From an uncultured Prevotellaceae bacterium (lineage in GTDB: Bacteria > Bacteroidota > Bacteroidia > Bacteroidales > Bacteroidaceae), in NCBI GenBank assembly GCA_900316645.1, contig ONDP01000015.1, forward strand, positions 1 through 64,000: a stretch of 64,000 nucleotides of DNA. Reading direction: 5' to 3'. Of this stretch, positions 18,397 through 37,760 are shown one piece after another. A program made the translations under genes and the position numbers. The notes below the pieces were generated by a model, which was given only the letters and a program-made list of their open reading frames with translations, was not told where the DNA came from and searched no databases. The first letter of the stretch is position 1, and the number at the start of each line of letters is the position of its first letter.

Positions 18397-19194
18397 CTAT
18401 TCTGCTTCGTTTTGTCCTGTATTTTCGCTGGGATCCACAGGGAAGTCATCACCAGTCACCTTGATAGTAATGCTATGGGTTATTTCAGAATTATCGACAG
18501 ATGCCACAGTAATATTCACCGTTCCACTTCTCATGAATGTCACCATGCCATGATCGTCTATCAGGGCCACCGCTTCATCACTGGTACTCCACGTCACATT
18601 GGTTTCTGTTGTGTAGATGGGAGTGAAACTGGCCAGTAACTGCACAGAAGTGCCTACCATTTGCTGTTGGGTGAGGTCTGTCATGTTTGCACACGTGATG
18701 TCTACAGCAGTAGGATGAGTCACAACGAAGACTGGCGTATAGGTACTGGTAAAGGACAATATGCCGTCGCTGAAGACAAGGGCGAAGGCATAGTCGCCGT
18801 CATACTCGAAGCCACTACTGGGTGTCGCCGTCATTGTTATCACACCTGCTGTGGCGTCTCCCTGCACATTAGAGATGCTCAGCGAGGGACTCGAAGCATT
18901 TGTCTTGCTGTCGAATCGCAGTTGTTGACTATTGGTCGCCAGTGCCGTGGCAAGTTTCTTCGGTTCCACCCGATAGCGTAATGTCATCGGTGTTGTTCCG
19001 TCCACGCGGATGAAGCCGTTACTATACTCTGGGACAAAAACCAGTGACTGCAACTGTTTGACAATACCATTCAGGTCGTTTTCCAGTGAGTCAAGTCGTT
19101 CACCTTGTCTGTTGATGTCGTCCTGATAGTCACTACATGCCATCATCAGCAGAAGAGCTGGGAAAAGCACTTTAAGGAGTGTTTTATTATTCAT
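18397..19194 (-). CDS. Ig-like (BIG2-type) domain lipoprotein
   Basis: A 265-residue predicted lipoprotein. I chose the ATG at 19192-19194 (MNNKTLLKV) because it gives a clean signal peptide ending in the lipobox LMMAC; the frame is open for 10 more codons but overlaps the preceding gene. After the Cys comes a short predicted coiled coil (DINRQGERLDSLENDLNGIVKQ...), a beta-rich domain, and a bacterial Ig-like domain (about 165-250, with VTWSTSDEAVALIDDHGMVTFMRSGTVNITV). It is the last gene of the surface-protein operon, 11 nt after the OmpA-like gene. A role as a surface accessory of the MBG proteins is inferred from position only. Confidence 0.82.
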   Translation of the reverse strand: MNNKTLLKVLFPALLLMMACSDYQDDINRQGERLDSLENDLNGIVKQLQSLVFVPEYSNGFIRVDGTTPMTLRYRVEPKKLATALATNSQQLRFDSKTNASSPSLSISNVQGDATAGVITMTATPSSGFEYDGDYAFALVFSDGILSFTSTYTPVFVVTHPTAVDITCANMTDLTQQQMVGTSVQLLASFTPIYTTETNVTWSTSDEAVALIDDHGMVTFMRSGTVNITVASVDNSEITHSITIKVTGDDFPVDPSENTGQNEAE

Positions 19195-19205
19195 AATACA
19201 TATAT

Positions 19206-20324: not shown

Positions 20325-23300
20325 TTAATCACGACCTTTTTACCATTCACGATATACACGCCCTTCTTTACAGGACGTCCCTCTATCTTGCGACCGTTCA
20401 GGTCGTACCAATCGGCGGTAGCAAATTTTTCACTATTCACTTTTACCTCTTCACTTACACTCGTCGTTCCCTCATTGATGACATCCAGGACGGTGCTATA
20501 GCTTCTTCCCTGAGCGACGGCAGGCAGATGCAGCACCGCCTTACCGGCAGGCACTTTCACCGCTTCGTCTTCCAGTTTGATGCTGCAGAACTTATTATCT
20601 TTCAGGATATAGTAGTCATTCTCGTAGTGTGTAGCCTCAATGACTGGCTCCAGACAGTTCTCCTCACCATAGTCCTTATGGTCGTCCGTACTGATGAACG
20701 TACCACTGCTCATCCGTCGTGGACAAGCCACGATATCGTATGAGGTGTCACTGTTGCCAGACAAGAGGACGCCGTTATTGGACTTGATGACGCTGACGCC
20801 GTTGACATTCAGTTCTGTTGACGTCAGTTCTACGATGGCTACTGTCGTGGTGGTACGTTCCTGAACGGTGAAGACGGTTATGTTCTCAGGAACGTAGACA
20901 TCTACGCCACTCGAGAAGGTCCAGTATTGGTTCTTGGCCTTTACCGTCGTCATCACCTTGTCGTTTCTGAAGTTAGCACCCAACGACGGCATCAGGGCAT
21001 AGTCGTCGAGCAGTGCCAGCGACGTATGTATCGTCGTTGTTGCGGGAATGGCATTGTCGCCGATAGTGAGGGTCTCTTCCGTATCAGGCAGATAGAGGTT
21101 CTGCAGATGCTCTGCATCCTCAAAGGCGTAGGCGGCAATTTCGGTGATAGTATAGGTCACTTCATCAACGGTGCAGTTAGCAGGTATGGTAAGATCAATC
21201 TCCTTGTCCTTCTCAGACTCTGGAATCTTGACACCTTTAACCCTGATATTGTTGTTTTCCTCGTCAATCAGTGAGACAATGAGCGAGACGGCGAACTCTT
21301 TCTGTTCCTCGTCGGTAGCTGTGATATCGACAGAGAAGTCTGAACGCTCTATCACATACGTCTTGATGACCTCACTGGTATAGTTGCCCAGACCAGTGAC
21401 CTTCACCTCATAGCTGCCTACTTCCGTACCACCTTCATTGACGATGGTGTAGTCCGTCTCTTCTACCAGTGTATTCTCGCCGTCCTTCACCTCAACGTCA
21501 GGCCGTTGCAGTTCTCCGTTATAATAGAACACCTCTTCGCTTAGAATCACCATATTGTCCGTGATCGGCTTGGGGGTAATCTCGAAGGTCGTTGAAGCCG
21601 TACCCGTGAAGTTCTCCTTACCAGTCACGGTAACAGTGACTGTACCCACATTGACGTTGGGAGATATCTCGACGGTATAACTGCTGGTAGGAACAATCGT
21701 CGAACTAATCGCTACCTCGCGAACACCAGGATTCTTTGCCGTTCCGTCATAGACATAGCTTGCCATCTCGTAGAGCACCACTTTCGCAGTCTCGATACTC
21801 AATGGCTTGATGGTAAACTGCTTGGTAATTACACCCGTATAGTTGTTCCTACCAATCACTACCACATCATAGTCGCCATGATTAATACCACCGTCATTTG
21901 TCAGGGTATAGTCATTGGCAGTGAGGAAGGACTGGTCGCTGACAGTGACAGTAGGCTTCTGTTGCAGTGTGTTATAGGTATATGACGTACTGCTCAAGAA
22001 GACCATATCCTCTGTGAGAGGTTTCGGCTTGATGATGAAGGTCTTCGTCGTCGTACCGCTATACTCGCCCTGACCGGTAATCGTCACTGTGGCCGTACCT
22101 GCATTCGTATTATCCGTATAGCTGACAGAAAACTCGCTTCCTGGTGTCAACGTCTTATCACCGTCTTTCACGGTGACGGTAGGACGATGCTCACTACCCG
22201 TATAGACCACCTGTTCTGTACTCAGCGTTACATCGAACGAGCCGATACCCTTTGAGATGATGCAGAACTGTTTGGTAGCCATACCGTTGTAATTGCCCTT
22301 ACCGTTGGCAATGACATCATACACGCCTACAGAGACACCTCCCTCGTTGGTCAGTGTGTAGTCGGTATCCAGTACCATTTCCGTACCACCGTTCATCAGG
22401 ACGACGACGGGTTTCTGAGTGGCACCGTTATAGACATACTCCTCATTGCTGAGAATAATCATATCAGCCGCCAGTGACTGGCGCTCAATGGTGAATTCCG
22501 TCGTCAGCGTACCCGTGTAGTTGCCTTGTCCTGTAACGGTGACGCTAGCCGTACCGGCATCCGTGTTATTCGAGTAAGCCACCGCATAGCCAGCCGTCGG
22601 TATCACATCTTCACCGAAGGCAACCTCCTTCACACCAGGTTTCTTGGCTTTGCCGTCATAGACATAGCTCTCCAGTTCGTAGAGCGTCACCTTAGCCCCC
22701 TCAATACTCCTTTTGGCGATAACATACGGATAGTCGAACTCTCCGCTGTAGTTGCCCGTCGCTGTTATGATGGCATGATAAGTACCTTGGTTCACACCAC
22801 CGTTGTTCGTGATGACATAGTCACTCGCCTTCAGGGCTGTTCCGTCTCTCACTACTACCGTAGGAGTCTGGTTCTTGCCATTATAAATGAAGCCGTCAGC
22901 TGTCGTATAGCCGGAAACGGTAATCATTGCAGCCGTCAAAGGCTTCTTGGTAATCTCGAAGGTTGTATTGCGTGTACCGGTATAGTTACCTTTACCTGTG
23001 ACAGTGACTGTTGCCGTACCTGCATTCGTATTATCACTGAACACAACGGTATAGTCAGTCTCAGCCTCCAGTTTCTTGTCGCCGTCCTTCACGGTAACAG
23101 AGGGTTTCTTCTCCGTTCCGTCATACTCCACACTGGCTTCTCCCAACGTAATCGTGAAGTGGTTGATGACAGCATCCTTCTCCCAGATACTGTACTGCTT
23201 CTCGGCCTCACCCTTGTAGTTGCGCTTGCCGACAATCTTCACCTTGTAGTTGCCTACCTCTATACCACCGTCGTTCGTGAGTGTATAGTCATCGGCAGTG

Positions 23301-26300
23301 ATACGCTCAGTGTCACCGTTCTTGTCACTGACAGTCACCGTAGGCTTCTGCAGTTCACCCGTATAGTTGAAGTTCTCCTGACTGAGTGTGATCATGCTGC
23401 TGTTGACAGCCTTCTTCTCAATCTCGAAGGTGGTAGAGGCAGTACCCGTGAAGTTGTTCTTACCTGTGACGGTAACCGTTGCCGTACCTGCGTTGATGTT
23501 ATTGCCATAGGCCACGTCATAGCCCACCGTAGGCACGACGATATTGGCTGCAGTCACTACCTCGCGCACACCAGGTTTCTTCTCCGTACCGTCGTACGCC
23601 TTGTCTGGCAACTGGTACAGGGTGATGGCGGCATCCTCAATACTCAGCGGCTGGATGTTGAATGTCTTGGTAACTGTTCCTGTATAGTTGTTACTTCCCG
23701 TGATGGTTATCTCATAAGGTGACGAAGTCTCATTCACGTTCAGTCCGCCATTGTTTACCACCACATAGTCGTCAGCAGTCATTGCACTGCCGTCAGCCAC
23801 CGTGACAGCAGGTTTCTGTATGGCACCGTTATAGATGAATCCGTCACCTGTCGTGAGCGTGTACCCCGTCACCTGTACCATATCCGCTGTCAGGGTCTTC
23901 GGATTGATCTTGAACGTCTTGGTGGCAGTACCCTGATAGTTACCGATACCCGTCACATTGGCTGATGCCGTACCAACATTCGTGTTGTTGGTGAAATTAA
24001 TGGTATAGTGGGTGTCTTTTGTCAACACGACATCTGGATTGTTGGCATCCCTGACAACGACGGTGGGCTCCTGGTTCGTACCATTATACGTCACATCGCT
24101 GATGTTGTCAATGGTAAAGCCTGCGGAACCGGTGGCAATGATATTATACTCCTTCGAGGCCTGTCCTCCATAGTTCCCTTGTCCAGTGATAGATACAGAA
24201 TAGGTTCCTACATTCACCGCACCGACATTTACCAAGGTATAGTCTTCTGTGGCTCCTTCTGTTAGGGTATTTTCGCCATCTTTCACGGTGACTGTTGGTT
24301 TGAGGAGCGAACCGGTATATTCCAGATTACTGTTACTAAGGATAATCATATCACTGGTCACAGGCTTCGGTGAGATGGTGTAGTCTTTTGTGACGGTTCC
24401 CGTGAAGTTGTGCTGTGCCGTGATGGTGATGGTCTTCTGACCATGACTCGTAGCGTCGGCAGGATAGGTGATGTCATAGTCAGTGCTGGGAACAGTCAGG
24501 GTACCCACCTTCACCTCACTCACTGCCGGCTTCTGGGCTGTGCCGTTGTAGGTGTATGTCAATGCTTCCAAGGTGACAGAGGCTCCCGTGATGCTCAACG
24601 GACTGATGGTATATTGCTTAGTGACCGAACCGGTATAGTTATGAGTTCCAGTTACCGTTATATCATAAGTGCCCACATCACTGTGATCAGAGTTGCTGAT
24701 GGTGTAGTCGAGAGATGTCATTGCATTACCGTCACTGACGGTGACAGTAGGCTTCTGGATATTGCCGTTATACGTAAACGTGGTGGGTGTCGACAGTGTC
24801 ACCATATCCGCAGTCAGTGACTTTGCTGTAATATTGAAGGTCGTTGTCTTGGTACTTGCATAGTTCCCCTTACCCGTTACGGTGACAGTGGCTGTACCCA
24901 CGTTCACATTGTCGCTATAAGCTACGTCATAGTCCGTACCCGGATTCAATGCTGTTGTCGTACCGGCTTTGTTAACTGTCACTGTCGGTGTGATAGGCGA
25001 CCCAGTGTATGTCTGGTTGCCAATCGCGACGATGTCAAATGCAGTCCCACTTTGTTTAGCTACGATACTGTATTGCTTCGTAGCCGTTCCTGTATAGTTC
25101 TGCTTACCCACAATCTTTACCTCGTAGTTGCCTACTTCCGTACCACCAGGGTTCGTGAGTGTATAGTCATCCTCTGTGATGATATTGGTAGCCGGATTAT
25201 TCGGGTCTTTCAAATCCTGAATGGTCGGATTGGGCTTGAGCACCTCACCCGTATATACCATGTTCATCTCTGCCTCAGGAATCACAATCATGTCGGCAGT
25301 GACAGGCTTGGGTGAGATAGTGAAGGTCTTATCAATACTGCCTGAGAAGTTGCCTGATGCTGTCACGGTGACCGTAGGAGCAGTAGTTGCTGTTGATAGC
25401 GCTGCATTTTGGTTGTTTGCATAGGCGGTAGAGTAGGTTGGTACAACCAGTTCACCCACCTTTACTACCAGCACGTTCGGTGTCTTGTTGTCACCGTCAT
25501 AGATAAATGTCGACTGATCCAGCGTGACTGCTGTTGTGGCAGGCAGTACGTAAGGTCTGATCTCATAAGTCTTTATCACTTCGCCCGTATAGTTTCCATC
25601 CTCATTACTGCTGATAGTCACTGTATAAGGAGTGCTGGAGGCATTGATATTACCCTCGTTGGTAATCGTATAGTCCTTACTGCTGATGATTGAAGGTGTT
25701 CCGTCAGTCACACTGACGCCTGGCTTCTTCAGCGTTCCGTCGTAAGTGTAGTAAGTTTCAGTAGAAACCACAGGAATACCCGTCAGTGCTATCGCCGCAG
25801 TGCTAAGTTCTTTCTTTCCAATGTTGAATGTCGCCTCCTTGGTGAAGCTGTAGTTGCCGATACCCGTTATAATGGCAGTCGCAATTCCAGCATTGATATT
25901 GTTCACATAGGTCACATTATAATCGGTACCAAAGTCCAAAGGTGTTTCTCCTTTCTTAACCGTAATGTTACTGGTGCTGTGTGGTGTCTGTGCCGCTCCG
26001 TTGTAGGTATAGTCGCCGCCTATGGTAACGGTAATATCATCATCACCTATTTTATTAATAACATACTTTTTGACGATAGTACCGCTATAGTTGTTCTGAC
26101 CGACAATCTGTACTTCCTTCTCACCGGGAGCCGTAACATCATCGGGATAGCGGACTACATAGTTGGCACTTGCTACCGTACCAGGCAAAGCCACATCCGT
26201 TACTGTCACAGTAGGCTTCAACACACTGCCAGTATAGGTCACACTGGTATATGACAATTCCACCATTGCGTCCGTCAGCGGCTTTGGCAGAATGGTGAAG

Positions 26301-29266
26301 TGTGTTGAGGCTGTTCCTGTAAAGTTGTCTCCGCCAATTGTAATTGTTGGAGCCGTTGTACTTGCATTCTGATTATTGCTGTAACTGAAAGTATATCCAG
26401 AAGTTAATGTCAATTGGGTGTTGTTTGTCAGTGTAATCACCACCTTCTGAATGCCAGGTTCTTTGTCAGTGCCGTCATAGACAGCGTTTGGTAATGGATA
26501 GAGGCCGATATCCACATTGCTTACCTGCGTTGAGCTTAAATCGAGCGCAGAGATGGTATATCTCTTTTCTGACATTTCTGTATCTGTGGATTTCAAAGTG
26601 CCTGTGAAGTTGCCGATACCTGTTACCTTGTAATAACCTGTGCCTACATTCGTCGTTCCCTCGTTAGTCAGCGTATAGTCAAGACCTTCCGTCCGTACAC
26701 CATTATAAGTTACTGTGATGTTTGGCTTCTGGGCACTGCCGTTATAGGTGAAGTCGCTTGCTGACAATGTCACCATATCTGCTGTCAGCGGTCGTTTTTT
26801 AATAGTGAATGGTATATGCTTTACGAAGTTATAGTTGTTTCTACCGATGACTGAGATGGTTGCTTGACCAACATTGGTGTTATTGTTATAAACCACCTCA
26901 TAGTCATTCTCATTTCCTTCAGTCAACGGATTATTGTCTTTCGTTACTGTGAGGGTTAGTGTAATGGGATTGCCCGTATAGATAATATTATCATCATTTT
27001 CGGCATAAGTTACAGAAACACCAGTATCTGAGTTGTTTGACACAATGCTATATGGCACTTCAACTTTACCTGTATAGTTTCCCTTACCTTCAACTTTCGC
27101 ATAATACACGCCAACCGCTGTTCCACCATCATTAGTTAGTTTATATTCATTGACTTCTGTTGAAGTACTTGGTGTCAGCGTTACATCACCATCCTTTACT
27201 GTGACAACAGGAACATGAGCAGAACTATTATAGGTAAAACTGTTGTTTACAAATGGGTCTGTTGTTGGATCACTACTGCTCAGCGTCACCATCGAACTGG
27301 TAATCGGCTTTTGCGCAATCATGTATGTTACATCTTTCGACCCACCAAAGTTGCCTGTTCCAGAAATACGAATAGTTTTCGTTCCCTGATTTGTATAATC
27401 AGAAGTTGGATACGTAACGGTAGAATCATCTTCATTTAGTTGAATACCATTCACCGTTACTCTCTCAATGTCAGGTTTCTGTTCGCTTCTATTATAGACT
27501 GTACTGTTATACTCTAGGGTGACTATTGTATTGGTAGTTGTCATATCGAGAGTACCAATGGTGTAATTACCAGATACTTTTGAGCCATCATAATTGCCTT
27601 TACCTGTAACCGTGACTGTATGATTTCCTGCATTGACAGCTCCGTCACTAAGGGTATAGTCTATACCTTCTGTTAATAAAAGTCCGTCACCTGTGGCCCT
27701 GTCTTTATCCCTCACTGTTACAGAAGGACGTTGTTTGCTTCCATTATAGGTGAGCGTCTCTGAGCCTAAGGTAACTGTTATATTGCTATTGTTGGTAATA
27801 TCCTTTGCAGTAATCTCGAAATTTGCATTGGCCATAAAGTCGTAACCACCTTTACCAATAGCAGTGACAGTAGCTGTTCCAACATTGATATTATTGTTGT
27901 AAACGAGTCGGTAGTATGCCGTTCCCAGTACGGGGTCACTGCTTGCTGGCGCAGTACCTTCTTGCTTCCTGACGAAGATATTCGTGCCTGGGGTAAGTTC
28001 TATCTGACTACCGGTATATGTCTTACTAAGTGTTGTGGTAACAGAAGAACTGTTATATGAAATATAGTAGCCGTCATTGCTCACATTAATCGTAAATGGC
28101 ACATTGACAGAACCTGTATAGTTGTTAATACCAGTGACCGTCGCATTATAACCGCCAACGGCAGTCTTTACATTGCCGGCAATAGTATAATCCGTGTTTT
28201 CCTCTAATAGCTGTTGATTTTTGTTATCCCTTATTGTAGGATCAAATGTAATCTCTGAACCAGTATAAGTGAAAGAACCTGTCGCTGGACTTATGTCACA
28301 TGTGGATATTTCTTTCCTATTGATGGTATAGGTTGCTCTTGCATAGGTCGTCTCGTCAAAATTACCCTTACCCTTTATTATGATAGTATATGTTCCTGCA
28401 TTTTTCGAATCAAAGTCCTCATAAGCAGTACCGGGTACTGTAGGATCTGAAGAGCTATAATCGCCCGTATAATACTTCACCTCTTGATAACCGTTTGTAC
28501 TACTACCTAAAGTTAATTCCTGGCCATTAAGATACACTCCACTTATTGTAGCTATCTGTTTCGTGCCTTTTTTATATACATAACTCTCATTCGACAGCAT
28601 GATTGTTGCATCACTGATAGAACGTGCAGTTATGCCATATGTTTTTGTTGCCGTACCTTTAAATTTTCCAATACCTGTTAGGGTGATGGTTCCTGAACCA
28701 ACATCGGTAATGGATGTAATCCCTTCTACGGTATAATCCGTACCTTCTGTAAGAGTGACGGTACCACTATTTATGGTGACATTGCTAATAACCGGCATAT
28801 GTGTCAACCAGTCATATTCTCTCGTTCCTGAGGCAAAGTCGCCAGAAAGGGTAATCGTTGCTCCGCTGATGTCATCACATTCTACAAACATCGCGTCAAT
28901 CTCCACGTTGAAATTGGGCATAGTGAACGTGTAAGTGTTGGCTCCACTACCTGGAGTCAGAGGAATCGTACTTGTTATCACAGGTGCTCTGTTGGCCCCT
29001 CGTGAAGCAGCACTGCCAGAATCCCCATAAGGAGTTACAGTCAATGTACTCAGATAGTACCCCGCACTAGGTGTTACCGTCAGCGTAACTACTTCTGTCG
29101 GACTCACTGATATCGGATTTGTTGTCGCTGTTGATTGAGAGCCTTGAGTGGCAACGACACTACCATTAGTTATCGCATTGACCTTAACGTCGCCTGCCCA
29201 TGATGCAGTGGCCATCAACAGGCTGACGATTGTAACAAATATCTTCTGTATCTTATTCATAGTCAT
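20321..29266 (-). CDS. Giant MBG-repeat surface protein, 2981 residues
   Basis: A secreted protein: signal peptide (ending SWAG), an InlB/Flg_new-like domain ending YTFTMPNFNVEIDAMF, then about 31 MBG-type beta modules of 75-100 residues. The module consensus is roughly YxG...KPxVxVxDG...L...DYxVxYxNNxNxGTxTVTVTGxGNYTGT. Modules follow a fixed order, ABC then seven DABC blocks (block starts near 28075, 27030, 26045, 25045, 24123, 23165 and 22238; the last ends near 21338). The C-terminal ~345 residues hold a short BspA-like segment, a beta-rich domain, and the tail YDLNGRKIEG...NGKKVVIK. The first ATG (29266) lies 3-4 nt from the GGAGGG box and the second (29260) about 9 nt, so MNKIQ may be the true start. 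Likely an adhesin; MBG domains are typical of large cell-surface proteins. Confidence 0.9.
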   Translation of the reverse strand: MTMNKIQKIFVTIVSLLMATASWAGDVKVNAITNGSVVATQGSQSTATTNPISVSPTEVVTLTVTPSAGYYLSTLTVTPYGDSGSAASRGANRAPVITSTIPLTPGSGANTYTFTMPNFNVEIDAMFVECDDISGATITLSGDFASGTREYDWLTHMPVISNVTINSGTVTLTEGTDYTVEGITSITDVGSGTITLTGIGKFKGTATKTYGITARSISDATIMLSNESYVYKKGTKQIATISGVYLNGQELTLGSSTNGYQEVKYYTGDYSSSDPTVPGTAYEDFDSKNAGTYTIIIKGKGNFDETTYARATYTINRKEISTCDISPATGSFTYTGSEITFDPTIRDNKNQQLLEENTDYTIAGNVKTAVGGYNATVTGINNYTGSVNVPFTINVSNDGYYISYNSSSVTTTLSKTYTGSQIELTPGTNIFVRKQEGTAPASSDPVLGTAYYRLVYNNNINVGTATVTAIGKGGYDFMANANFEITAKDITNNSNITVTLGSETLTYNGSKQRPSVTVRDKDRATGDGLLLTEGIDYTLSDGAVNAGNHTVTVTGKGNYDGSKVSGNYTIGTLDMTTTNTIVTLEYNSTVYNRSEQKPDIERVTVNGIQLNEDDSTVTYPTSDYTNQGTKTIRISGTGNFGGSKDVTYMIAQKPITSSMVTLSSSDPTTDPFVNNSFTYNSSAHVPVVTVKDGDVTLTPSTSTEVNEYKLTNDGGTAVGVYYAKVEGKGNYTGKVEVPYSIVSNNSDTGVSVTYAENDDNIIYTGNPITLTLTVTKDNNPLTEGNENDYEVVYNNNTNVGQATISVIGRNNYNFVKHIPFTIKKRPLTADMVTLSASDFTYNGSAQKPNITVTYNGVRTEGLDYTLTNEGTTNVGTGYYKVTGIGNFTGTLKSTDTEMSEKRYTISALDLSSTQVSNVDIGLYPLPNAVYDGTDKEPGIQKVVITLTNNTQLTLTSGYTFSYSNNQNASTTAPTITIGGDNFTGTASTHFTILPKPLTDAMVELSYTSVTYTGSVLKPTVTVTDVALPGTVASANYVVRYPDDVTAPGEKEVQIVGQNNYSGTIVKKYVINKIGDDDITVTIGGDYTYNGAAQTPHSTSNITVKKGETPLDFGTDYNVTYVNNINAGIATAIITGIGNYSFTKEATFNIGKKELSTAAIALTGIPVVSTETYYTYDGTLKKPGVSVTDGTPSIISSKDYTITNEGNINASSTPYTVTISSNEDGNYTGEVIKTYEIRPYVLPATTAVTLDQSTFIYDGDNKTPNVLVVKVGELVVPTYSTAYANNQNAALSTATTAPTVTVTASGNFSGSIDKTFTISPKPVTADMIVIPEAEMNMVYTGEVLKPNPTIQDLKDPNNPATNIITEDDYTLTNPGGTEVGNYEVKIVGKQNYTGTATKQYSIVAKQSGTAFDIVAIGNQTYTGSPITPTVTVNKAGTTTALNPGTDYDVAYSDNVNVGTATVTVTGKGNYASTKTTTFNITAKSLTADMVTLSTPTTFTYNGNIQKPTVTVSDGNAMTSLDYTISNSDHSDVGTYDITVTGTHNYTGSVTKQYTISPLSITGASVTLEALTYTYNGTAQKPAVSEVKVGTLTVPSTDYDITYPADATSHGQKTITITAQHNFTGTVTKDYTISPKPVTSDMIILSNSNLEYTGSLLKPTVTVKDGENTLTEGATEDYTLVNVGAVNVGTYSVSITGQGNYGGQASKEYNIIATGSAGFTIDNISDVTYNGTNQEPTVVVRDANNPDVVLTKDTHYTINFTNNTNVGTASANVTGIGNYQGTATKTFKINPKTLTADMVQVTGYTLTTGDGFIYNGAIQKPAVTVADGSAMTADDYVVVNNGGLNVNETSSPYEITITGSNNYTGTVTKTFNIQPLSIEDAAITLYQLPDKAYDGTEKKPGVREVVTAANIVVPTVGYDVAYGNNINAGTATVTVTGKNNFTGTASTTFEIEKKAVNSSMITLSQENFNYTGELQKPTVTVSDKNGDTERITADDYTLTNDGGIEVGNYKVKIVGKRNYKGEAEKQYSIWEKDAVINHFTITLGEASVEYDGTEKKPSVTVKDGDKKLEAETDYTVVFSDNTNAGTATVTVTGKGNYTGTRNTTFEITKKPLTAAMITVSGYTTADGFIYNGKNQTPTVVVRDGTALKASDYVITNNGGVNQGTYHAIITATGNYSGEFDYPYVIAKRSIEGAKVTLYELESYVYDGKAKKPGVKEVAFGEDVIPTAGYAVAYSNNTDAGTASVTVTGQGNYTGTLTTEFTIERQSLAADMIILSNEEYVYNGATQKPVVVLMNGGTEMVLDTDYTLTNEGGVSVGVYDVIANGKGNYNGMATKQFCIISKGIGSFDVTLSTEQVVYTGSEHRPTVTVKDGDKTLTPGSEFSVSYTDNTNAGTATVTITGQGEYSGTTTKTFIIKPKPLTEDMVFLSSTSYTYNTLQQKPTVTVSDQSFLTANDYTLTNDGGINHGDYDVVVIGRNNYTGVITKQFTIKPLSIETAKVVLYEMASYVYDGTAKNPGVREVAISSTIVPTSSYTVEISPNVNVGTVTVTVTGKENFTGTASTTFEITPKPITDNMVILSEEVFYYNGELQRPDVEVKDGENTLVEETDYTIVNEGGTEVGSYEVKVTGLGNYTSEVIKTYVIERSDFSVDITATDEEQKEFAVSLIVSLIDEENNNIRVKGVKIPESEKDKEIDLTIPANCTVDEVTYTITEIAAYAFEDAEHLQNLYLPDTEETLTIGDNAIPATTTIHTSLALLDDYALMPSLGANFRNDKVMTTVKAKNQYWTFSSGVDVYVPENITVFTVQERTTTTVAIVELTSTELNVNGVSVIKSNNGVLLSGNSDTSYDIVACPRRMSSGTFISTDDHKDYGEENCLEPVIEATHYENDYYILKDNKFCSIKLEDEAVKVPAGKAVLHLPAVAQGRSYSTVLDVINEGTTSVSEEVKVNSEKFATADWYDLNGRKIEGRPVKKGVYIVNGKKVVIK
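20428..20455 (-). repeat. Four-heptad array within the giant MBG gene
   Basis: On the minus strand four 7-nt units of the AGTGAAG/AGTGAAT type are followed by AATTTGCTACCGCC. The array encodes SEEVKVNSEKFATA just before the YDLNGRK tail. The same array plus downstream flank occurs in frame inside an unrelated gene at 43500-43538. Confidence 0.88.
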
Positions 29267-29275
29267 TTTCCCTCC

Positions 29276-29417
29276 TTATTTAATCACGATTTTCTTACCA
29301 TTTACAATATAGATTCCCTTGGTAGGATATAATACCCTTCGCCCACTGAGGTCGTAGTATTTATCATTTTCAATTTTCAATTCTCCATTTTCAATTGAAA
29401 TAACATTTGTCGTTTCA
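29276..29417 (-). repeat. 3'-end duplication, copy in the 594-residue protein gene
   Basis: About 140 bp at the 3' end of this gene is nearly identical to 31070-31215 at the 3' end of the 1592-residue protein gene, including the heptad array and the tail-coding segment. The neighbouring tail copies invite recombination or gene conversion. Confidence 0.88.
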
Positions 29418-31060
29418 TCGTCCAAGTCTAGTCCTCTACTTAGACTGAGGCTGGGTGTTGAGAACTGATTTTTAGGTAGTTTCAAATAGCATTTTCCTGC
29501 AGTTAATGTACCGCTTTTGGTGCGTACGAACTGATCACGGATAAGTATCCAGTAGTCGTTATTCGCATCACCACTGGTTGTTGTTGCCATATCAATGTCT
29601 GATGCAGCCCCTATAAAAGCGGCATCTTGAGTTCCATTCTTGGTAGCTGTCGTTGATTTGACCAGTTCGGGATAGAAGGTGACAGGATTATCCCCAGAAT
29701 GATAGAACAACATTGGAACCCCACTCAGAATATAAGTCTGGAGTACAAGTCCTACTCCTGGTTCTGTAACGCTACCAACGGTATAGGCTTCCATACCAGT
29801 AGGCACTATCATGTTCAAAGGAGTGTAATAATATGTACTCCAATGAAAACCTCCTGGCAGCGTTATCTCTGGCCTGATTTGGTAGTTCGCCGTCATACTT
29901 CCTGTATAGTTGCCTGTGAAAGTAATGTCAATGGTGTAAATGTCAGGACGGGTGTAGTCCGTACCATTTGTATAGACACCGGGTGTTGTCGTATAATTAA
30001 AAGTAAAGTTGGTACCCAGTGTCAGTCTCGTATTTCCATAATAGACTTTCATGTTGCTCTCTTCCGTATTGTCGATTGACGGCTGATGTGGACTGCCGTC
30101 ATAGTTATGGTAGTCCTTTGTGAAGGTAACGGTAGCAATCCCACTCAGGTCTTTCTGGGTGATGGTCAGAAGTCCTGTATTGTAGGTCACGTTATAGTTA
30201 CTGATTCCCTTTGTAGTGGTAGCAGCACTGGGCGTGATAGTTCCTGCAGCAGTAACCTGAGAGGTTGAAGGAGTCAATGTGATGCCAGTCAGTCCATCAT
30301 TTGTCACTAGGCCTGTGATATTTACTTGACTAACACCTGTCTGAATGCTACTTCCATAGGAAATGGTTTGAGCTTTGGCAGTAATAGTCAGATTCTTTCG
30401 GGTAATACTGAGCGTTGTGGAATTGATAGTACCTTTATATTTACCAATACCTGTTACTTCTGGAGTTGCACTAAATACATTTGTCCAACTGTTTGTACCT
30501 GGATCAGAAATAGTATAGTCCACGTCTATTGTTAATGGAGTATCACCATTCTTCAGAGTAAGAACATGTTCAGAGCCATCATATATTGTGCTTGCAGCCG
30601 TTCCGTCGAGCGTAAGAGAAAAACTGCTGATGTCGGTGCGTGCAGCGAAGGTGGCATAAATGACAACATCGGAAGCAGGCATCGTGAAATTATAATCTCC
30701 TGCATAGCTATGTGCATGATCTGTATTGATGGCTATCGTCCCCCGTGTGGCAAAGCCCGGACCCGGAGCACGATTCCAACGACTCTCAGCACCGCCTAAG
30801 TCCATCACATACTCATACTCGAGTTTCTTTAAGTAATAGTCATTGCCAGACAATGCGATGGTCAGCGTAACGTTACTGCTGGCCGGGATGTCCGTTGAGT
30901 TTACCACCACTGGGCTACTATTATACGTAGCTGTGAATGTGGCACCAGCTCCACCATCACCCTCTTTGACTAAACCTGCAATCTTCCAGGCATATCCTCC
31001 CGTGAATGTCAGGAGGCAAGCCATTGTGAATACTATTCTTTGTATTTTGTTCATAGTCAT
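29276..31060 (-). CDS. MBG-domain surface protein, 594 residues
   Basis: A secreted protein that begins like its giant neighbour (MTMNKIQRIVF versus MTMNKIQKIFV), then has a Flg_new/InlB-like domain ending YNFTMPASDVVIYATF and three MBG/YDG-like modules (including YDGSEHVLTLKNGDTPLTIDVDYT and a YDGSPHQPSI module). The C-terminal region is beta-rich and ends in the tail YDLSGRRVLYPTKGIYIVNGKKIVIK region. RBS-like GGAGG is 2 nt from the first ATG and 8 nt from the second (31054), favouring MNKIQ as start. It is the second gene of the operon, with 9-nt gaps on both sides. Probably a smaller structural partner or paralogue of the 2981-residue protein. Confidence 0.87.
   Translation of the reverse strand: MTMNKIQRIVFTMACLLTFTGGYAWKIAGLVKEGDGGAGATFTATYNSSPVVVNSTDIPASSNVTLTIALSGNDYYLKKLEYEYVMDLGGAESRWNRAPGPGFATRGTIAINTDHAHSYAGDYNFTMPASDVVIYATFAARTDISSFSLTLDGTAASTIYDGSEHVLTLKNGDTPLTIDVDYTISDPGTNSWTNVFSATPEVTGIGKYKGTINSTTLSITRKNLTITAKAQTISYGSSIQTGVSQVNITGLVTNDGLTGITLTPSTSQVTAAGTITPSAATTTKGISNYNVTYNTGLLTITQKDLSGIATVTFTKDYHNYDGSPHQPSIDNTEESNMKVYYGNTRLTLGTNFTFNYTTTPGVYTNGTDYTRPDIYTIDITFTGNYTGSMTANYQIRPEITLPGGFHWSTYYYTPLNMIVPTGMEAYTVGSVTEPGVGLVLQTYILSGVPMLFYHSGDNPVTFYPELVKSTTATKNGTQDAAFIGAASDIDMATTTSGDANNDYWILIRDQFVRTKSGTLTAGKCYLKLPKNQFSTPSLSLSRGLDLDDETTNVISIENGELKIENDKYYDLSGRRVLYPTKGIYIVNGKKIVIK
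29368..29395 (-). repeat. Four-heptad array (ATTGAAA type) in the tail-coding segment
   Basis: Minus-strand units ATTGAAA, ATGGAGA, ATTGAAA, ATTGAAA followed by ATGATAAA encode IENGELKIEND upstream of the YDLSGRR motif. Confidence 0.88.
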
Positions 31061-31069
31061 GTCCTCCTA

Positions 31070-31215
31070 TTATTTAATCACGATTTTCTTACCATTATAT
31101 ATATATACGCCTCCCTTGGTTGGATATAATACCCTTCGACCACTGAGGTCGTAGTATTTATCATTTTCAATTTTCAATTCTCCATTTTCAATTGAAATAA
31201 CATTTGTCGTTCCGT
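31070..31215 (-). repeat. 3'-end duplication, copy in the 1592-residue protein gene
   Basis: Partner of 29276-29417. The two copies differ mainly around the KGG-V/I-YI codons, where this copy reads GGVYIYNGKK. Confidence 0.88.
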
Positions 31216-34200
31216 CTCCCTCGCCAATCTCCAAGTAATCAGGTATTGCTCTTGCACCCGCTGTTGGATTTGCGATATAACAGCGATTAGCTGGCAACGT
31301 ACCACTATAAGCTCTGTAGAATTTGTCACCTCGTAATACATAGATGGCGGTTTTGCCAGCCATCAAGGATTCATAGCCTCTTGCATCATTTTCTCCCTTA
31401 CCGATATAATTTGCTGAATAACTTGGTACGTCGCCTGTTGTAGCTTTTAAGTGATAAGTGCCATTGCAATATCCGTCTGATTTATATAGTAGGACTGGAG
31501 TGCCGGCTGGAAGATAATCAATTTCTTCAATGGTTGTCGAACCTTCTCCAAAATCAACCCCTGTTACCTTATAGGCTCGCAACCCAGAAGGACGTGTCAA
31601 GGGGACTGCGTCGAAATTATAATAGGTAGAATAATGTCCTGTAGCACCACTAATGACAATCTTTCTGGTGATATAGAAATCCTTAGCTCCTGTTGTTCCA
31701 GCAAAGTCTCCATGACCTGTAATGTTAACGGTGGCGGTGCCTATGGCTGTGTTATTGGAGTAAGATGTTATTTCATAATCATACGGATCAGAAGGATTAT
31801 CTTTTAATTTCAAAGGCAATCCTCCAAGCGTAACAGTGACGGAAGGCGTTTTCGGATTACTATCGTAATCAGTATATTTTACTCCATCAGAATAAGTATC
31901 ATATCCTGTAATTTCAATAGTTGCCTGTTCCAGGTCTAACTCAAAGATACGATCAGAGTAACTAGCTCCCCAAGCAGTTGTATAGGTTGTTTTCAATCCT
32001 TTCTTTACAAAAGCTTTATACGATTCACTATCACTCATGAAACCACCACTCGATGGAATGGGATATGTGCTATTATCGTGAAGGAAGATAATCTTTTTCA
32101 GTGTGGTTTGCCATAAGAACACATTATAATCAAACTGTGTTACCGTAGTTGGGACATAATAGGTATCACCTTCCTTCGCAAGCGGGTAGCAGATAAGTTT
32201 CGTTTTACTTTTGTCATATAGTATTCCGTCATCAGCGGTATAGTTGGGATTGTCATCATGAACCGTAATACTTTCAAGATTTTGACAATACATAAATACA
32301 CCAGCACCAAAGGTTGTGACACTTTCGGGAATATGGAATGTTGTCAAACCAGAACACCAGCAAAAAGCATTATCACCGATTGAGGTCACACTGGTAGGAA
32401 TGGTAATAGATGGGATGGTGTAACAATTATTGAAGGCGCTATTGCCAATTGTAGTGACCCCAGCAAGTGAAATAGTGGACAGTGAAGTACATTGGTTAAA
32501 GGCCTGTTGTCCAATAGTTGTAGTACCGTTTATTGTTAATGATGTTAAATGGGAACAACCTCGGAACGCAGATGAACCTATGGATACCACATCTACTAAA
32601 CTGATTGTTTGAAGAGTCGTGTTGTTGTAAAAATAATTGTTTGGGATAATAAGTGAGCCGTCCCCTGTGATGTTGAGCGTTGCCAAAGAAGTACAACCAG
32701 AGAAGACGGTTTCTCCTATCGTTGCAACCCCTGTTAATGCAACTGATGACAGATGCGTACAGCCCTTAAACGCATTATTGCCTACAGTTGTCACACTTGA
32801 CGTAGGAATTGTTGTCAAATGAGTATTATAGGCAAATGCTTCTTCTGCGATGGTTGTCACCCCCGCTGGTATGATATAACTATCATTATCATCATCAATA
32901 TCTTTTCCAGCAGGGTAGCAGATGAGTTCACTTCCTGTTTTGTTGAACAGAACACCGCTTTCGGATTTATAAGCAGAATTCCCTCCATCTACTGAGATAC
33001 CTGTCAGATGCGTGCAATTTCCAAAGGCTTTAGTACCTATTGTAGCAACTGAGGCTGGTATTTCAGGAGTAGCAGTCAGACCACTACCATAGAAAGCATA
33101 AGGACTGATGCTCGTCACGTGGTTTGAAAGGTTAACCGATGTATAGCTCAGATTCTTCCAAGGAATTGTTGATGAAGTATATGTTGCCATATCGCAGTTG
33201 GCATCATTCTCCGTAACAAATGTGAGACAATCGCCATTTAGGTAGTATTTCATCTTTTCCTCATTGCCAGACGCTCCACAGTAGCCTCCCTCTCTGAAAA
33301 CCACCTTAATCTCTGTGTTGACGTTGGGCATGGTTATGCTATAGTTCCCATTCTTGGGATAACTGCTGATAGACTGTTCAAGACCGCCAGATGGTGTATA
33401 TGTCAATGATACAGGTACATAGCTATGGTTATTATATGTACCTGCTGATATAGAAATAGGTACAACCTCACCTTGCACAGCGTTTGACTTAACAGTCATG
33501 GAACAACCCGTAGTGATGTTTATATTTTTGGTGATGGTTAGCAATGCGCCATAAATAGCCTCATTGCCGCTACTATGTCCAATACCATAACCGGAATTGT
33601 CAGCAGAGAATATTTCACCACTACCATCCCAACCTAACCCACTAGTAAATGTGAATGGGGTGTTCGAATGAGTAACTTTTATCTTAGAACTTGCACTAAG
33701 TCCATCAATCGTTATTGTTTTACCAGTAGTAAGATAAACATTGCTGGCCACATCGGGACTCCCCTTAATGACGTTGTCGGTGTTAATCTTGAGATAACCT
33801 TGCATTTTGAGCAAAGTAGCACTGCCGTTCTGGTATATACCTGCACCAAGATGGCCATTGGTCACTTTATTGCCTGTAATATCCAGGCTGTTCGTATTAC
33901 CTCCTGTGTCATTGTTTAGTGTCAGGGAATAATTATTCAGGATACCACCACCATGACCGTCGTTATAGCCTCCTTTTATGACACCATAGCCAGTGATAGT
34001 CAGTGTACCCTCGTTTTTGATGACATAACCATCCGAAGTTGCAATGGTCAGTTTGCGGTCAATAGTATGTCCTGCCATATTGAGAGTGACAGTGTTACCT
34101 GATGGCACTACCAATCCTCCTACATCATTGGGGTGGGGTTCATAATCCCTGTCTAATGTAATATTTGCATTGTTAACCGTCATTTGATCTTGCAGCATTC

Positions 34201-35848
34201 CCCAGTGTGACTCAAGCTTGGCCTCGGAGCCACTAAGGCTTAGGGTTAAACGGGCGTCATCGGATGAGAAATTCGGCAGTCCCCCTCCCGTGCCAAGTCC
34301 AGAGGTGAAAATACCAAGCGTCTGCATAGAAACCCCAATTACACCCGTTGTCAGTGCTACAGGAATAGTGATAACCTTACCTGTAAGCAAATAGACGTTA
34401 TTAGGCTCAAGATTTGCGGTGTTGCTTGTGATATTTGGCGCACCCTGAATATTCAAGGAATTGACTGCAGTGCCATTATGATAAATTCCACCACCGTTTC
34501 CTGTAGCCGTATTGTCAGTGATGGTTCCTCCTTGAATGTTCAACGTTCCTTGGTTGTTGATTCCGCCACCATTAGTGCTCGTAGAGTTACCGGTAATTCT
34601 ACCTTTGATTATAGTTAATGTTCCTTGATTATCAATGCCTCCACCAGCATAGGAATTTTTTCCGCCCGTAATGACACCTTCAGTCCCTCCACTAGTATCT
34701 CTGATAGTTAACTGACCTCTATTCCATATAGCACAGCCATTAGTTGCAGCGCTACTTAAGTTACGATTGATGGTGTGTCCGTTCAAATCAAGCTCCAGGA
34801 TTTTACCCTCTGGTACTGTAAGGCATTCATCTGTTGATGAGGCTGTATAGGTTTTGGTTAGAGTGATATCTCCACCCTGCATAAAGCGTTTCCCTAAAAC
34901 TATCCAATTTCGCTGTAGCGAGGCTTCGTTAGTTGCAGACTCATCAAAATATGGATCGTAATTGCCGTCGTCTGACTTGAAATATTTCCAACCATCGGTA
35001 CTATAAGTAGTGAGGTCTTGGGTAAAGACGCCTGGTGTTTGCATCTTAATACCAATATCTCCTTCATTTCCGTTCAATGAACCGTCAATGGTTATTTTCA
35101 TTTCTGTAGGCAGGTAAATATTGCCATTCGAATTGTTTTCGATTTTTGGATCACCAGAGATGTAAAGTGTTGCACCTAAAGTATTATGAATACCGTCAAC
35201 GGTATTATTGGTTGTATTACTACCGTTATTGTAAATATAACCACCCTTAAGATATAGCGTACCGGCATTGTAGATTCCACCCACCTGATGAGCTTGGTTG
35301 TTATATATCTCACCTCCTTCAATCGTCAGAGTAGCAACTGATTCATTGTATATGGCGCCACCTCCTCCGGTATAAGTGCCAGCTCCACCTGCTATAGCAG
35401 CATTATTTCCAGAAATCTTTCCACTCTGAATAGTTAACGTTCCGTAATTATGAATTCCGCCACCTTTAACACTAGTAAAACTATCGCCTCCCGTTATTAT
35501 ACCTTTTCCTTCACCACTGCCATTACTATCTTTAATGGTCACAGTGCTTCCGTTATGAATAGTGATAACAGAGCTCTTAGATGAGGTATTATAGTTATTT
35601 GAGAGTGTATGTCCATTGAGATCTAGAGTAACGTTAACAGTAGTGTTACTACCAATAGTAAAGCCATTGTTCGTTGCAGCGGCAATGTCTCCTGTCATTT
35701 TGATATGCCCACTTGTATTCAAAGCAGTTTGTAAAGCTGTCTCATTCGAAACCTCCGTCCAAGATGGTTCCTGTCCCCATACCCCTGTTGGGAGAAGGGT
35801 AGCGGCTAGAATGAGAAATAATTTAGTAGTGAATTTTATCATTTTCAT
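31070..35848 (-). CDS. Beta-helix / BspA-LRR / MBG mosaic surface protein, 1592 residues
   Basis: First gene of the surface operon. Order: signal peptide (ending GVWGQ); a long right-handed beta-helix region (to about residue 780) with Pmp-like GGGIxNxGTLTIxxGxIxGN repeats, in three blocks each opened by a VPxGxxLxLxGHTIxR-type motif; a Flg_new-like domain (YSITMPNVNTEIKVVF); BspA-type leucine-rich repeats (about 900-1280; units such as TTIGNSAFNNCYTIPSITIP and TSIGDNAFCWCSGLTTFHIP); one MBG-like module (YTDYDSNPKTPSVTVTLGG...); a beta-rich domain; and the YDLSGRR...NGKKIVIK tail. These modules are all associated with surface adhesion. Start: ATG at 35846-35848, with an in-frame ATG two codons later. 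A promoter and operator array lie upstream. Confidence 0.9.
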   Translation of the reverse strand: MKMIKFTTKLFLILAATLLPTGVWGQEPSWTEVSNETALQTALNTSGHIKMTGDIAAATNNGFTIGSNTTVNVTLDLNGHTLSNNYNTSSKSSVITIHNGSTVTIKDSNGSGEGKGIITGGDSFTSVKGGGIHNYGTLTIQSGKISGNNAAIAGGAGTYTGGGGAIYNESVATLTIEGGEIYNNQAHQVGGIYNAGTLYLKGGYIYNNGSNTTNNTVDGIHNTLGATLYISGDPKIENNSNGNIYLPTEMKITIDGSLNGNEGDIGIKMQTPGVFTQDLTTYSTDGWKYFKSDDGNYDPYFDESATNEASLQRNWIVLGKRFMQGGDITLTKTYTASSTDECLTVPEGKILELDLNGHTINRNLSSAATNGCAIWNRGQLTIRDTSGGTEGVITGGKNSYAGGGIDNQGTLTIIKGRITGNSTSTNGGGINNQGTLNIQGGTITDNTATGNGGGIYHNGTAVNSLNIQGAPNITSNTANLEPNNVYLLTGKVITIPVALTTGVIGVSMQTLGIFTSGLGTGGGLPNFSSDDARLTLSLSGSEAKLESHWGMLQDQMTVNNANITLDRDYEPHPNDVGGLVVPSGNTVTLNMAGHTIDRKLTIATSDGYVIKNEGTLTITGYGVIKGGYNDGHGGGILNNYSLTLNNDTGGNTNSLDITGNKVTNGHLGAGIYQNGSATLLKMQGYLKINTDNVIKGSPDVASNVYLTTGKTITIDGLSASSKIKVTHSNTPFTFTSGLGWDGSGEIFSADNSGYGIGHSSGNEAIYGALLTITKNINITTGCSMTVKSNAVQGEVVPISISAGTYNNHSYVPVSLTYTPSGGLEQSISSYPKNGNYSITMPNVNTEIKVVFREGGYCGASGNEEKMKYYLNGDCLTFVTENDANCDMATYTSSTIPWKNLSYTSVNLSNHVTSISPYAFYGSGLTATPEIPASVATIGTKAFGNCTHLTGISVDGGNSAYKSESGVLFNKTGSELICYPAGKDIDDDNDSYIIPAGVTTIAEEAFAYNTHLTTIPTSSVTTVGNNAFKGCTHLSSVALTGVATIGETVFSGCTSLATLNITGDGSLIIPNNYFYNNTTLQTISLVDVVSIGSSAFRGCSHLTSLTINGTTTIGQQAFNQCTSLSTISLAGVTTIGNSAFNNCYTIPSITIPTSVTSIGDNAFCWCSGLTTFHIPESVTTFGAGVFMYCQNLESITVHDDNPNYTADDGILYDKSKTKLICYPLAKEGDTYYVPTTVTQFDYNVFLWQTTLKKIIFLHDNSTYPIPSSGGFMSDSESYKAFVKKGLKTTYTTAWGASYSDRIFELDLEQATIEITGYDTYSDGVKYTDYDSNPKTPSVTVTLGGLPLKLKDNPSDPYDYEITSYSNNTAIGTATVNITGHGDFAGTTGAKDFYITRKIVISGATGHYSTYYNFDAVPLTRPSGLRAYKVTGVDFGEGSTTIEEIDYLPAGTPVLLYKSDGYCNGTYHLKATTGDVPSYSANYIGKGENDARGYESLMAGKTAIYVLRGDKFYRAYSGTLPANRCYIANPTAGARAIPDYLEIGEGDGTTNVISIENGELKIENDKYYDLSGRRVLYPTKGGVYIYNGKKIVIK
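31165..31192 (-). repeat. Four-heptad array, second ATTGAAA-type copy
   Basis: Identical in sequence and frame to the array at 29368-29395, as part of the duplicated 3' ends. Confidence 0.88.
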
Positions 35849-35872
35849 CTTATATTTTTATTATTTTTGGTG

Positions 35873-36021
35873 TAAAGTTAGGAGAAAATGACGGAAGAGG
35901 GACTAACAATTCTTGAAAAATGACTAACATTTCGTGAATTAAGAGTAAAATTAAGTCATTTTGGAGGCGGAAAAGACTAACATTTCTTGTTTTTGTAAGT
36001 AATTTGCAATAATTGTTAGTC
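35873..36021. promoter_or_regulatory. Operator array and promoter of the surface-protein operon
   Basis: Four copies of a 15-nt motif: GACTAACAATTCTTG (35901-35915), GACTAACATTTCGTG (35922-35936), GACTAACATTTCTTG (35975-35989) and, inverted, GACTAACAATTATTG (36007-36021, minus strand). Copies 1 and 2 are 21 bp apart, and 2 and 3 are 53 bp apart, so the direct copies share a helical face. The minus-strand -7 candidate TAACTTTA (35873-35880) places copy 1 at about -35, as for an AraC-type activator. The motif was not noticed elsewhere in the window. Confidence 0.82.
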
Positions 36022-36041
36022 CGTTGAATGGATGATTTTAT

Positions 36042-36049
36042 TACCTTTG
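36042..36049 (+). promoter_or_regulatory. -7 box of the propeller/AraC regulator gene
   Basis: TACCTTTG fits TAnnTTTG exactly and lies 4 nt before the GTG at 36054. The inverted motif copy at 36007-36021 sits about 20 bp upstream, suggesting autoregulation. Confidence 0.6.
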
Positions 36050-36053
36050 CAGT

Positions 36054-37760
36054 GTGAATGATAAATTAAGAAGTCTGGTAATCTTAGGATGTATGCTCAC
36101 ACAGGTAATATCGATGTTTGCCAGTGGGGTGAATACGGCATGTCCGACGGTGAAGATACAGCCCGAACGGTTGCCCGACCTGAACATTCCGCGTACCGCC
36201 CACCATGTGCTTTGCCTGAACGGTGAAGTCACGGCGATAGGGGGACACACGACGGCTTTCATTCCAACACCTACATTAGAATATTATAAGGATGGGGAGT
36301 GGCACGTGCTGCAGATGGCATACGCCCATAATGATGCCATTGTCGTTCCGTTGTCGTCGGGGAAAGTCCTCATTGCAGGAGGTTATGAGAAACCGCTGGG
36401 TATCGGACAGACTTACTCCACGGAGATTTACGACCCTGTCACCCATACTTTCGGCGATTTCGGTTGCTTGGACAGGAAACGGGCCCAGTCTATGGGTGTG
36501 GAACTGGATAGCGGCAAGGTGATGATAGCCGGTAACTGGTATCATGATGACGGCATAGAGATGTTTGACGGGCATAAGTCATTCGCCTATGTGAAGGATG
36601 TGGAAACAGGATACGGACATCCGTTCCTGCTCCGTACGGCCAAAGACGATGCTATCATCTTCGGAAGTTTCTCCTTTAAGGGCGACTCACTTCAGAGTTC
36701 GACAGTGGAGCGTCTGAAGGGCGACCCCGTCAATGTGCCGCTGTTGGAGCAATGGCATCCTAAATGTATGTATATTCCGAACAGCTCCGCTGACTATTTC
36801 ATCGGTGATGCGAAAAAGGGCATTTATTCCTATCTCATTCCTGTGGAGAACAACGACGGGCAGATCGCTATCGCCCAGGTGCGTAACGGTGAGTTCTCAC
36901 TTCTGCCGACGGCATGTGCGGTTCCTGTGAAGAGTCCCTGGGGACAGAAGATAGAATACGCAGGTTCTCTGGTGGTTGACAGACAAGTTCAACGGGCCTA
37001 CCTCGTTGGCAGAGACATTTTGATACAGGGAGATGATGCCCATGACGTCAATAATCGCAGGGGATACATCCTTTGTATCGAGTATGGGAAGGCACAGCAG
37101 GGTAACGGTGCGCCCATGACACTCTATTATACTGAGCCCATGGCCGAGAACGTCCTCCATCTGCCTGTCGTGACAAAAGACGGCGACCTGATGATAGTCG
37201 GCGGCAACCGTGAGGATAATTACACCCCATTGAGCACCGTCCTGTTGTTCCGCATGGGTCTCTCGTCCGAGACAGCAGAAGAAAACGCTTTTGCGGGATG
37301 GTTGTTATGGACCCTTGGCGTGTTGCTGTTCGCAGGTGTCCTTTTGTCGTACTTCCTCCTAAAGCGTCGCCAAAGGAAGGTGTTGGCTCGTAATCAGGAA
37401 GAAGCAGCCCTTTCTTACGCTGCCGGTGAGGAAATGGTGAGACGTGTCAGTGAACTCTTTGAGCAGAAGAAACTGTATTTGAACAGCGACCTGAAAGTCT
37501 CCGACGTGGCAGCGGAGTTAAGCACCAACACCCGTTATGTCTCTGAGTGTATTAAGATGGTCAAGGGTTATTCGTTCCCACAGTTCATCAACAGCTACCG
37601 TGTTGACCATGCCAAGCAGATGCTCCGCGACAATCCAACGATGAAGACAGCGACAGTATGCAGTGAGTCGGGCTTTGCCAACGAGGCGTCATTTTTCCGT
37701 ACCTTCAAGGCATATACTGGTATGACGCCAAGAGAATGGTTGGCACAGGCAGACGCTTAA
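36054..37760 (+). CDS. Kelch-like propeller / TM / AraC one-component regulator
   Basis: A 568-residue predicted membrane sensor-regulator. Order: signal sequence (about 1-23); an extracytoplasmic Kelch-like beta-propeller (about 30-400; blades with GEVTAIGGHT, GKVLIAGGYE, GKVMIAGNWY, DLMIVGGNRED); one TM helix (about 415-437, AGWLLWTLGVLLFAGVLLSY) followed by the basic KRRQRK; and an AraC/XylS HTH (about 465-565, with SDVAAELSTNTRYVSECI and CSESGFANEASFFRTFKAYTG). There is no kinase or receiver, so it is not an HTCS. The frame opens with GTG at 36054, close to the -7 box; the ATG at 36093 would shorten the signal peptide. It is divergent from the surface operon, its likely target. Confidence 0.88.
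   Translation: MNDKLRSLVILGCMLTQVISMFASGVNTACPTVKIQPERLPDLNIPRTAHHVLCLNGEVTAIGGHTTAFIPTPTLEYYKDGEWHVLQMAYAHNDAIVVPLSSGKVLIAGGYEKPLGIGQTYSTEIYDPVTHTFGDFGCLDRKRAQSMGVELDSGKVMIAGNWYHDDGIEMFDGHKSFAYVKDVETGYGHPFLLRTAKDDAIIFGSFSFKGDSLQSSTVERLKGDPVNVPLLEQWHPKCMYIPNSSADYFIGDAKKGIYSYLIPVENNDGQIAIAQVRNGEFSLLPTACAVPVKSPWGQKIEYAGSLVVDRQVQRAYLVGRDILIQGDDAHDVNNRRGYILCIEYGKAQQGNGAPMTLYYTEPMAENVLHLPVVTKDGDLMIVGGNREDNYTPLSTVLLFRMGLSSETAEENAFAGWLLWTLGVLLFAGVLLSYFLLKRRQRKVLARNQEEAALSYAAGEEMVRRVSELFEQKKLYLNSDLKVSDVAAELSTNTRYVSECIKMVKGYSFPQFINSYRVDHAKQMLRDNPTMKTATVCSESGFANEASFFRTFKAYTGMTPREWLAQADA

Follow-up and report, generated by a model that had tools for sequence, protein, structure and literature searches.

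In a 64,000-nucleotide stretch of an uncultured Prevotellaceae genome (hereinafter the window), the gap that separates a large minus-strand operon (first gene at 35848) from the GTG start of a divergent regulator gene on the plus strand (36054) contains several copies of the word GACTAACAWTTCKTG, which raises the question of what they are and what reads them. A scan of the window recovers three exact copies on the plus strand (35901-35915, 35922-35936, and 35975-35989) and a fourth, inverted copy on the minus strand with one mismatch (36007-36021). An earlier note on this DNA had described three direct copies, spaced 21 and 53 bp apart, and one inverted copy; count and spacings are borne out, with the mismatch in the inverted copy to be added. 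Genome-wide (2,879,477 bases in 57 contigs), GACTAACAWTTCKTG has three exact and two one-mismatch matches, and all three of the former and one of the latter fall inside a mere 121 bp (35901-36021). At up to three mismatches the 64-kb window has eight matches against a shuffle mean of 5.97, i.e., not above chance, and hence the evidence for GACTAACAWTTCKTG is the clustering of its near-exact copies and not the number of its loose matches.

We hold it very probable, from sequence and comparative evidence, that the four copies are half-sites of two divergent operators of the adjacent regulator, a predicted Kelch/TM/AraC protein, which would activate both the operon and itself. The earlier note took the copies as three direct sites plus one; the copies stand, and that layout gives way to one in which copies 1 and 2 are directed toward the operon and copies 3 and 4 toward the regulator. 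The two-operator arrangement is preferred on the grounds that each of the outer GTTAGTC words has a −7 box at a distance of exactly 20 bp. The first copy had also been said to abut the −7 candidate of the operon, which is incorrect: between GTTAGTC (35907-35901, minus strand) and TAACTTTA (35880-35873) there are 20 bp (35881-35900). The inverted copy does face the regulator gene as claimed, with its GTTAGTC (36015-36021, plus strand) 20 bp ahead of the regulator −7 box. The elements of the gap are, with H3 denoting the half-site nearest the −7 box:

35873..35880, minus strand: −7 box of the operon promoter, TAACTTTA, whose last letter departs from TAnnTTTG
35901..35907, minus strand: H3 of the operon-facing operator, GTTAGTC inside copy 1, 20 bp before the −7 box
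35922..35928, minus strand: H2 of the operon-facing operator, GTTAGTC inside copy 2, 21 bp from H3
35941..35947, minus strand: expected place of H1 of the operon-facing operator by the 26-bp spacing of the family, TACTCTT, weak and degenerate with the ACT core alone kept
35975..35981, plus strand: H1 of the regulator-facing operator, GACTAAC within copy 3; the span from here through H3 is 47 bp
35995..36001, plus strand: H2 of the regulator-facing operator, GTAAGTA, degenerate, with an H1-H2 total of 27 bp and 5/7 pairs
36015..36021, plus strand: H3 of the regulator-facing operator, GTTAGTC in the inverted copy 4, 20 bp before the −7 box
36042..36049, plus strand: −7 box of the regulator promoter, TACCTTTG, a full match to TAnnTTTG

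Both window operators are weaker than their counterparts in relatives: in each, two of the three half-sites are good, the best full score is 15.5 against a threshold of 17, and the strict operator pattern described below has no match in this genome, thus missing them both. The degenerate H2 form GTAAGTA also serves as H3 in two other loci (L117 and L118), and a displaced H1 candidate, GACTTAA (35957-35951, minus strand), is found one helical turn farther out. The combination GTTAGTC-N19/20-TAnnTTT has two sites genome-wide, both in this gap and in opposite directions (one match for the reversed control; chance expectation below one per genome by simple arithmetic), and GACTAAC-N12..16-GACTAAC has a single site in the genome, viz., the operon-facing pair.

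The main promoter of Bacteroides thetaiotaomicron has boxes near −33 and −7, those of B. fragilis being given as TTTG (−33) and TAnnTTTG (−7), in the accessible part of PMC7366714. The latter form, that of the sigma-ABfr −7 box, is present in TACCTTTG, while TAACTTTA is one letter off. A TTTG box near −33 is absent on both sides and GTTAGTC occupies that place, as expected for an activator-dependent promoter. As H3 ends 19/20 bp before the −7 box, it occupies the −33 place, and the best reading of this geometry is that of class II activation, with the AraC domains binding the operator half-sites and the regulator replacing the missing −33 contact on both sides. With one operator directed toward the operon and one toward the regulator, the protein would activate both; thus, we infer from the geometry operon activation together with positive autoregulation. 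A sigma-70-type promoter scan, with three matches versus 1.2 in shuffles, was set aside.

The genes on the two sides of the gap are:

36054..37760, plus strand: regulator gene with a GTG start, coding for a signal-like N-terminus, a Kelch propeller, a single predicted TM stretch (about 411-437), and a double HTH of the AraC type
31070..35848, minus strand: first operon gene, a 1592-aa protein with BspA-type leucine-rich repeats
29276..31060, minus strand: operon gene, a 594-aa protein with a signal-like N-terminus and no match to a Pfam family
20321..29266, minus strand: operon gene, 2981-aa repeat protein with a weak MBG_3 match below the Pfam cut-off
19206..20324, minus strand: operon gene, 372 aa, OMP beta-barrel and OmpA domain
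18397..19224, minus strand: last operon gene, 275 aa, Big_2 domain

The 568-aa regulator has Kelch and AraC-type domains and nothing else in Pfam (HTH_18, E 1.3e-18, residues 486-564; HTH_AraC, E 2e-9). Its double HTH, the AraC-type identity of its nearest solved chains, and the direct half-sites about 21 bp apart by the promoter (35901/35922) agree with membership in the AraC/XylS family. Hydropathy reveals two hydrophobic stretches in all, one N-terminal and one at about 411-438, pointing to a protein that would be tethered to the inner membrane by a single TM helix and have its propeller on the periplasmic side. Its GTG start is just 4 bp 3′ of the −7 box (36042-36056), which would leave its mRNA with little or no leader; where H3 and the −7 box are both strict, the same distance is 4-5 bp in six of seven cases (L054 and L074 being near-identical). 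Searches of the open-access literature yielded no description of a Kelch/TM/AraC regulator class in Prevotella or Bacteroidales, nor anything on AraC binding sites or RegPrecise in Prevotella. The operon across the gap comprises five genes over about 17-17.5 kb of the minus strand, with intergenic gaps of 9 bp or overlaps. A C-terminal motif, DL.GR...KG.YI.NGKK.VIK, is common to its three largest proteins (31070-35848, 29276-31060, and 20321-29266), whose C-termini had no match to NCBIfam sorting-domain models at E 0.01.

The full form of the operator is seen beside homologous regulators in Prevotella, where H1 (GACTNNC) and H2 (GNNAGTC) form a palindrome with a gap of 12 or 13 bp, and H3 (GNNAGTC) follows in the same orientation as H2 after a gap of about 14 bp, for 47-48 bp overall. 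The H2-H3 period is 21 bp in 88 of 97 unique operator strings (20 in six, 22 in three). By a loose score that leaves out the −7 box (threshold 17), such an operator is found at 65 of 91 unique regulators versus 1 of 455 Markov shuffles, a set enriched for palindromes because palindrome matches served to fetch 37 of its loci; three more came via direct-repeat matches near regulators and the rest by protein similarity (some of these also being direct-repeat places), and two of the 91 regulators are fragments (L091 and L109). On real sequence the background of this score is a value of exactly 17.0 in 3/54 window segments and 1/15 loci with propeller-less AraC proteins. In 75 of 78 operators the end of H3 lies 19 or 20 bp from a −7 box (TAnnTTT[GC]) that was not used in finding them, with the remaining offsets in the 110 bp scanned contributing eight −7 boxes altogether. 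A held-out set of 43 regulators, picked by protein similarity alone and with none identical to earlier ones, has the operator at 37, and the 19/20-bp spacing recurs in 41 of 43 operators. A search free of letter constraints likewise recovers an operator with a −7 box at 67/91 regulators versus 12/543 shuffled segments. As many loci come from close relatives (and from fragmentary genomes), these counts are not independent. An operator of this type is absent at 26 of the 91 and 6 of the 43 held-out regulators; some of these carry a TCCGACA-type palindrome instead, which replaces GACTNNC in a regulator subgroup (L066, L068, L070, L077, L083, and L165).

The operator lies either directly behind the regulator gene or ahead of it, at 53-64 bp from its start (at 118 bp in L090). 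In several of the former loci (L056, L059, L067, L095, L114, L125, L131, and others) the regulator stop codon falls inside half-site H1 (GAC-TAA-C or GAC-TGA-C). Given that in many relatives the palindrome sits at the stop codon and is then followed by GATTTT, it could be taken for an RNA hairpin, e.g., a terminator behind the regulator gene, instead of a protein-binding site. This is very improbable: the same element also precedes regulator genes, its third half-site has matching letters, and the −7 box follows at a fixed spacing; in the window, sites 1 and 2 have the same orientation, and a search of 35840-36120 turned up nothing terminator-like. We accordingly dropped the hairpin on the shared H3 letters, the fixed spacing, and the lack of a terminator-like site.

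The two placements of the operator also bear on the sign of the control exerted on the regulator gene. Autorepression is common among divergent AraC-type regulators, and the protein might, as in the case of AraC, repress its own gene via copies 3 and 4 while activating the operon via copies 1 and 2; a protein bound at the regulator-facing H3, which overlaps the −33 region, could also block the polymerase. We consider this unlikely, as the 20 bp between operator and −7 box on the regulator side match the geometry on the operon side and that of the operators ahead of relatives' operons, and the 19/20-bp spacing is common to operators upstream of regulators and those downstream of them.

The tie between operator and regulator extends across genomes. 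Homologs of the regulator (E ≤ 1e-60) occur in 128 of the 398 genomes of the genus examined, with three candidates scored per genome, and the named matches in a second collection are chiefly ruminant Prevotella MAGs, including Xylanibacter ruminicola D31d. The strict pattern GACTNNC-N11..13-GNNAGTC-N39..41-TAnnTTTG occurs in 92/398 genomes at 146 places (5 for the reversed control), namely in 84 of the 128 genomes with a listed regulator versus 8 of the 270 without one (Fisher p 2e-43). In one of those eight (G095) the operator adjoins a regulator broken into three pieces, and in six only AraC-domain matches were found. In the remaining one (G346, locus L119) a truncated regulator remnant stands behind an intact operator and −7 box at 4001. 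Among unique GACTAAC palindromes in the fetched loci, 45 of 50 are within 1.3 kb of the sensor part of a regulator, and one of the other five (L107), located where a contig ends, has a −7 box 19 bp away; the exact palindrome is absent from 24 searched genomes of other families. Counted genome by genome, neither the plain palindrome (41 genomes versus about 35 for the reversed-pattern control) nor the plain 21-bp direct repeat rises above control. These counts are uninformative because the reversed controls match a similar number of genomes or more, and for both plain forms only the position beside regulators tells. The earlier note had held that a motif scattered at random in the genome and not conserved beside orthologs would speak against its proposal; it is instead clustered here, and the operator recurs beside homologs of the regulator.

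This distribution likewise bears on whether another transcription factor might own the sites and control the promoter pair. The genome does encode further AraC-domain proteins (12 matches including the regulator), and binding by the adjacent regulator is itself an inference. Nevertheless, we judge another factor improbable, since the operator is found beside homologous regulators in many genomes and rarely without them, loci with propeller-less AraC proteins lack it except for the one borderline score in 15 mentioned above, and, as described next, the letters of the half-sites track a residue of the regulator.

The two variable letters (NN) of the half-sites differ by locus (AA, GA, TA, GC, CA, CT, AC, and others) and agree within a locus. 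Among strings found with the −7 box as part of the search pattern, NN is identical between H1 and H2 in 84 of 97 unique strings (no shuffle above 56) and between H3 and H2 in 36 of 78 (no shuffle above 24). The top covariation partner of NN is residue 545 in the second HTH (z 8.7, next 4.8), which by comparison with MarA we take to lie in the DNA-reading helix. R, K, or S at this residue goes with G as the first variable letter (13 and 1 versus 5 and 56); of 92 clean labels, 85 entered the covariation ranking and 75 the letter association and the test by independent pairs. The 545-NN link draws on about 10 changes on the tree, with 4.3 independent pairs for it, 0 against, and 2.7 showing no difference (p about 0.125, short of significance), and the covariation is unproven because the independent changes are too few. 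All seven regulators labeled as TCCGACA-type have K at the position of residue 545. The prediction of the earlier note, that the propeller/TM/AraC protein binds the copies and controls the operon and itself, thus draws support from the recurrence of the operator, its co-occurrence with the regulator, the fixed spacing to the −7 box, and the link to residue 545.

In relatives, the first gene past the operator codes for a protein with a signal-like N-terminus in 71/72 cases versus 3/62 for an interior-stretch control. Their Pfam assignments include BspA-type repeats (18/72), the Por secretion tail (6), and Peptidase C10 (4); this count leaves out 5 of 77 downstream genes, viz., three regulators (L056, L059, and L182:4663-6378) and two near-duplicates (L122 and L245), and for four operators no downstream gene was found. 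Such signal-like starts and Pfam families indicate that the regulator family would govern exported and surface proteins, as appears to be the case on these sequence criteria, and the leucine-rich-repeat operon of the window is typical of these predicted targets.

The proposed system combines features of several known ones. AraC itself is a soluble protein with a cupin sensor, whose araI1/I2 direct half-sites are 21 bp apart. Like AraC and the class II AraC/XylS activators, the system described here pairs direct half-sites at a distance of 21 bp, the proximal of which lies in the upstream promoter box, and has a divergent regulator gene; it differs in having a membrane protein with a propeller, a Bacteroidota −33/−7 promoter, and an inverted distal half-site. 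Hence, the likeness to araI1/I2 drawn by the earlier note is apt for the 21-bp pair and fails to cover the family operator, which also has the inverted half-site. The AraC-type HTCS of Bacteroides have predicted direct-repeat motifs at an average distance of 21 bp, according to the part of PMC3878776 available. As far as that part describes them, they share with the present regulators a periplasmic sensor and an AraC-type DNA-binding domain in one membrane protein (topology here being predicted from hydropathy) and directly repeated half-sites with a period of about 21 bp, which the H2-H3 pair fits. On the same basis, the present regulator differs in being without a histidine kinase or receiver domain in Pfam and in having a Kelch propeller as the putative sensor, an inverted H1 is added in relatives' operators (degenerate in the operon-facing operator of the window), and the predicted targets are surface/exported proteins, as opposed to polysaccharide-use genes. 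A periplasmic input domain, one TM helix, and a cytoplasmic DNA-binding domain are reported for CadC/ToxR in the accessible portion of PMC9214523. The hydropathy of the regulator predicts the same plan, with the difference, within what that portion covers, that the present protein has an AraC-type double HTH and a Kelch propeller.

More broadly, it is quite possible, though less likely than not, that a family of membrane-tethered Kelch/AraC activators in rumen Prevotella operates many separate surface-protein switches on one promoter plan, in which the operator stands in for the −33 box, NN is a specificity code read by residue 545 that keeps paralogous switches apart, and the regulators drive themselves via near-leaderless mRNAs. 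If so, self-driving regulators would make for all-or-none expression of surface proteins. The regulator class is widespread and, as far as the open-access searches show, undescribed, and in abundant rumen bacteria its predicted targets are surface and exported proteins. The promoter rule (operator, H3, 19/20 bp, −7 box) would let the targets of a regulator be read from sequence, and the correspondence of half-site letters to one HTH residue makes operator recognition directly testable.

Two further arrangements are seen among the strict matches. In four contigs (G228:C26, G176:C2, G105:C62, and G097:C78) these matches overlap on both strands, with one palindrome between divergent −7 boxes, which is a predicted shared divergent operator. 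In G290:C1 (230372-246306), a 16-kb stretch next to a regulator carries four strict operators in succession on the same strand, suggestive of consecutive co-regulated units.
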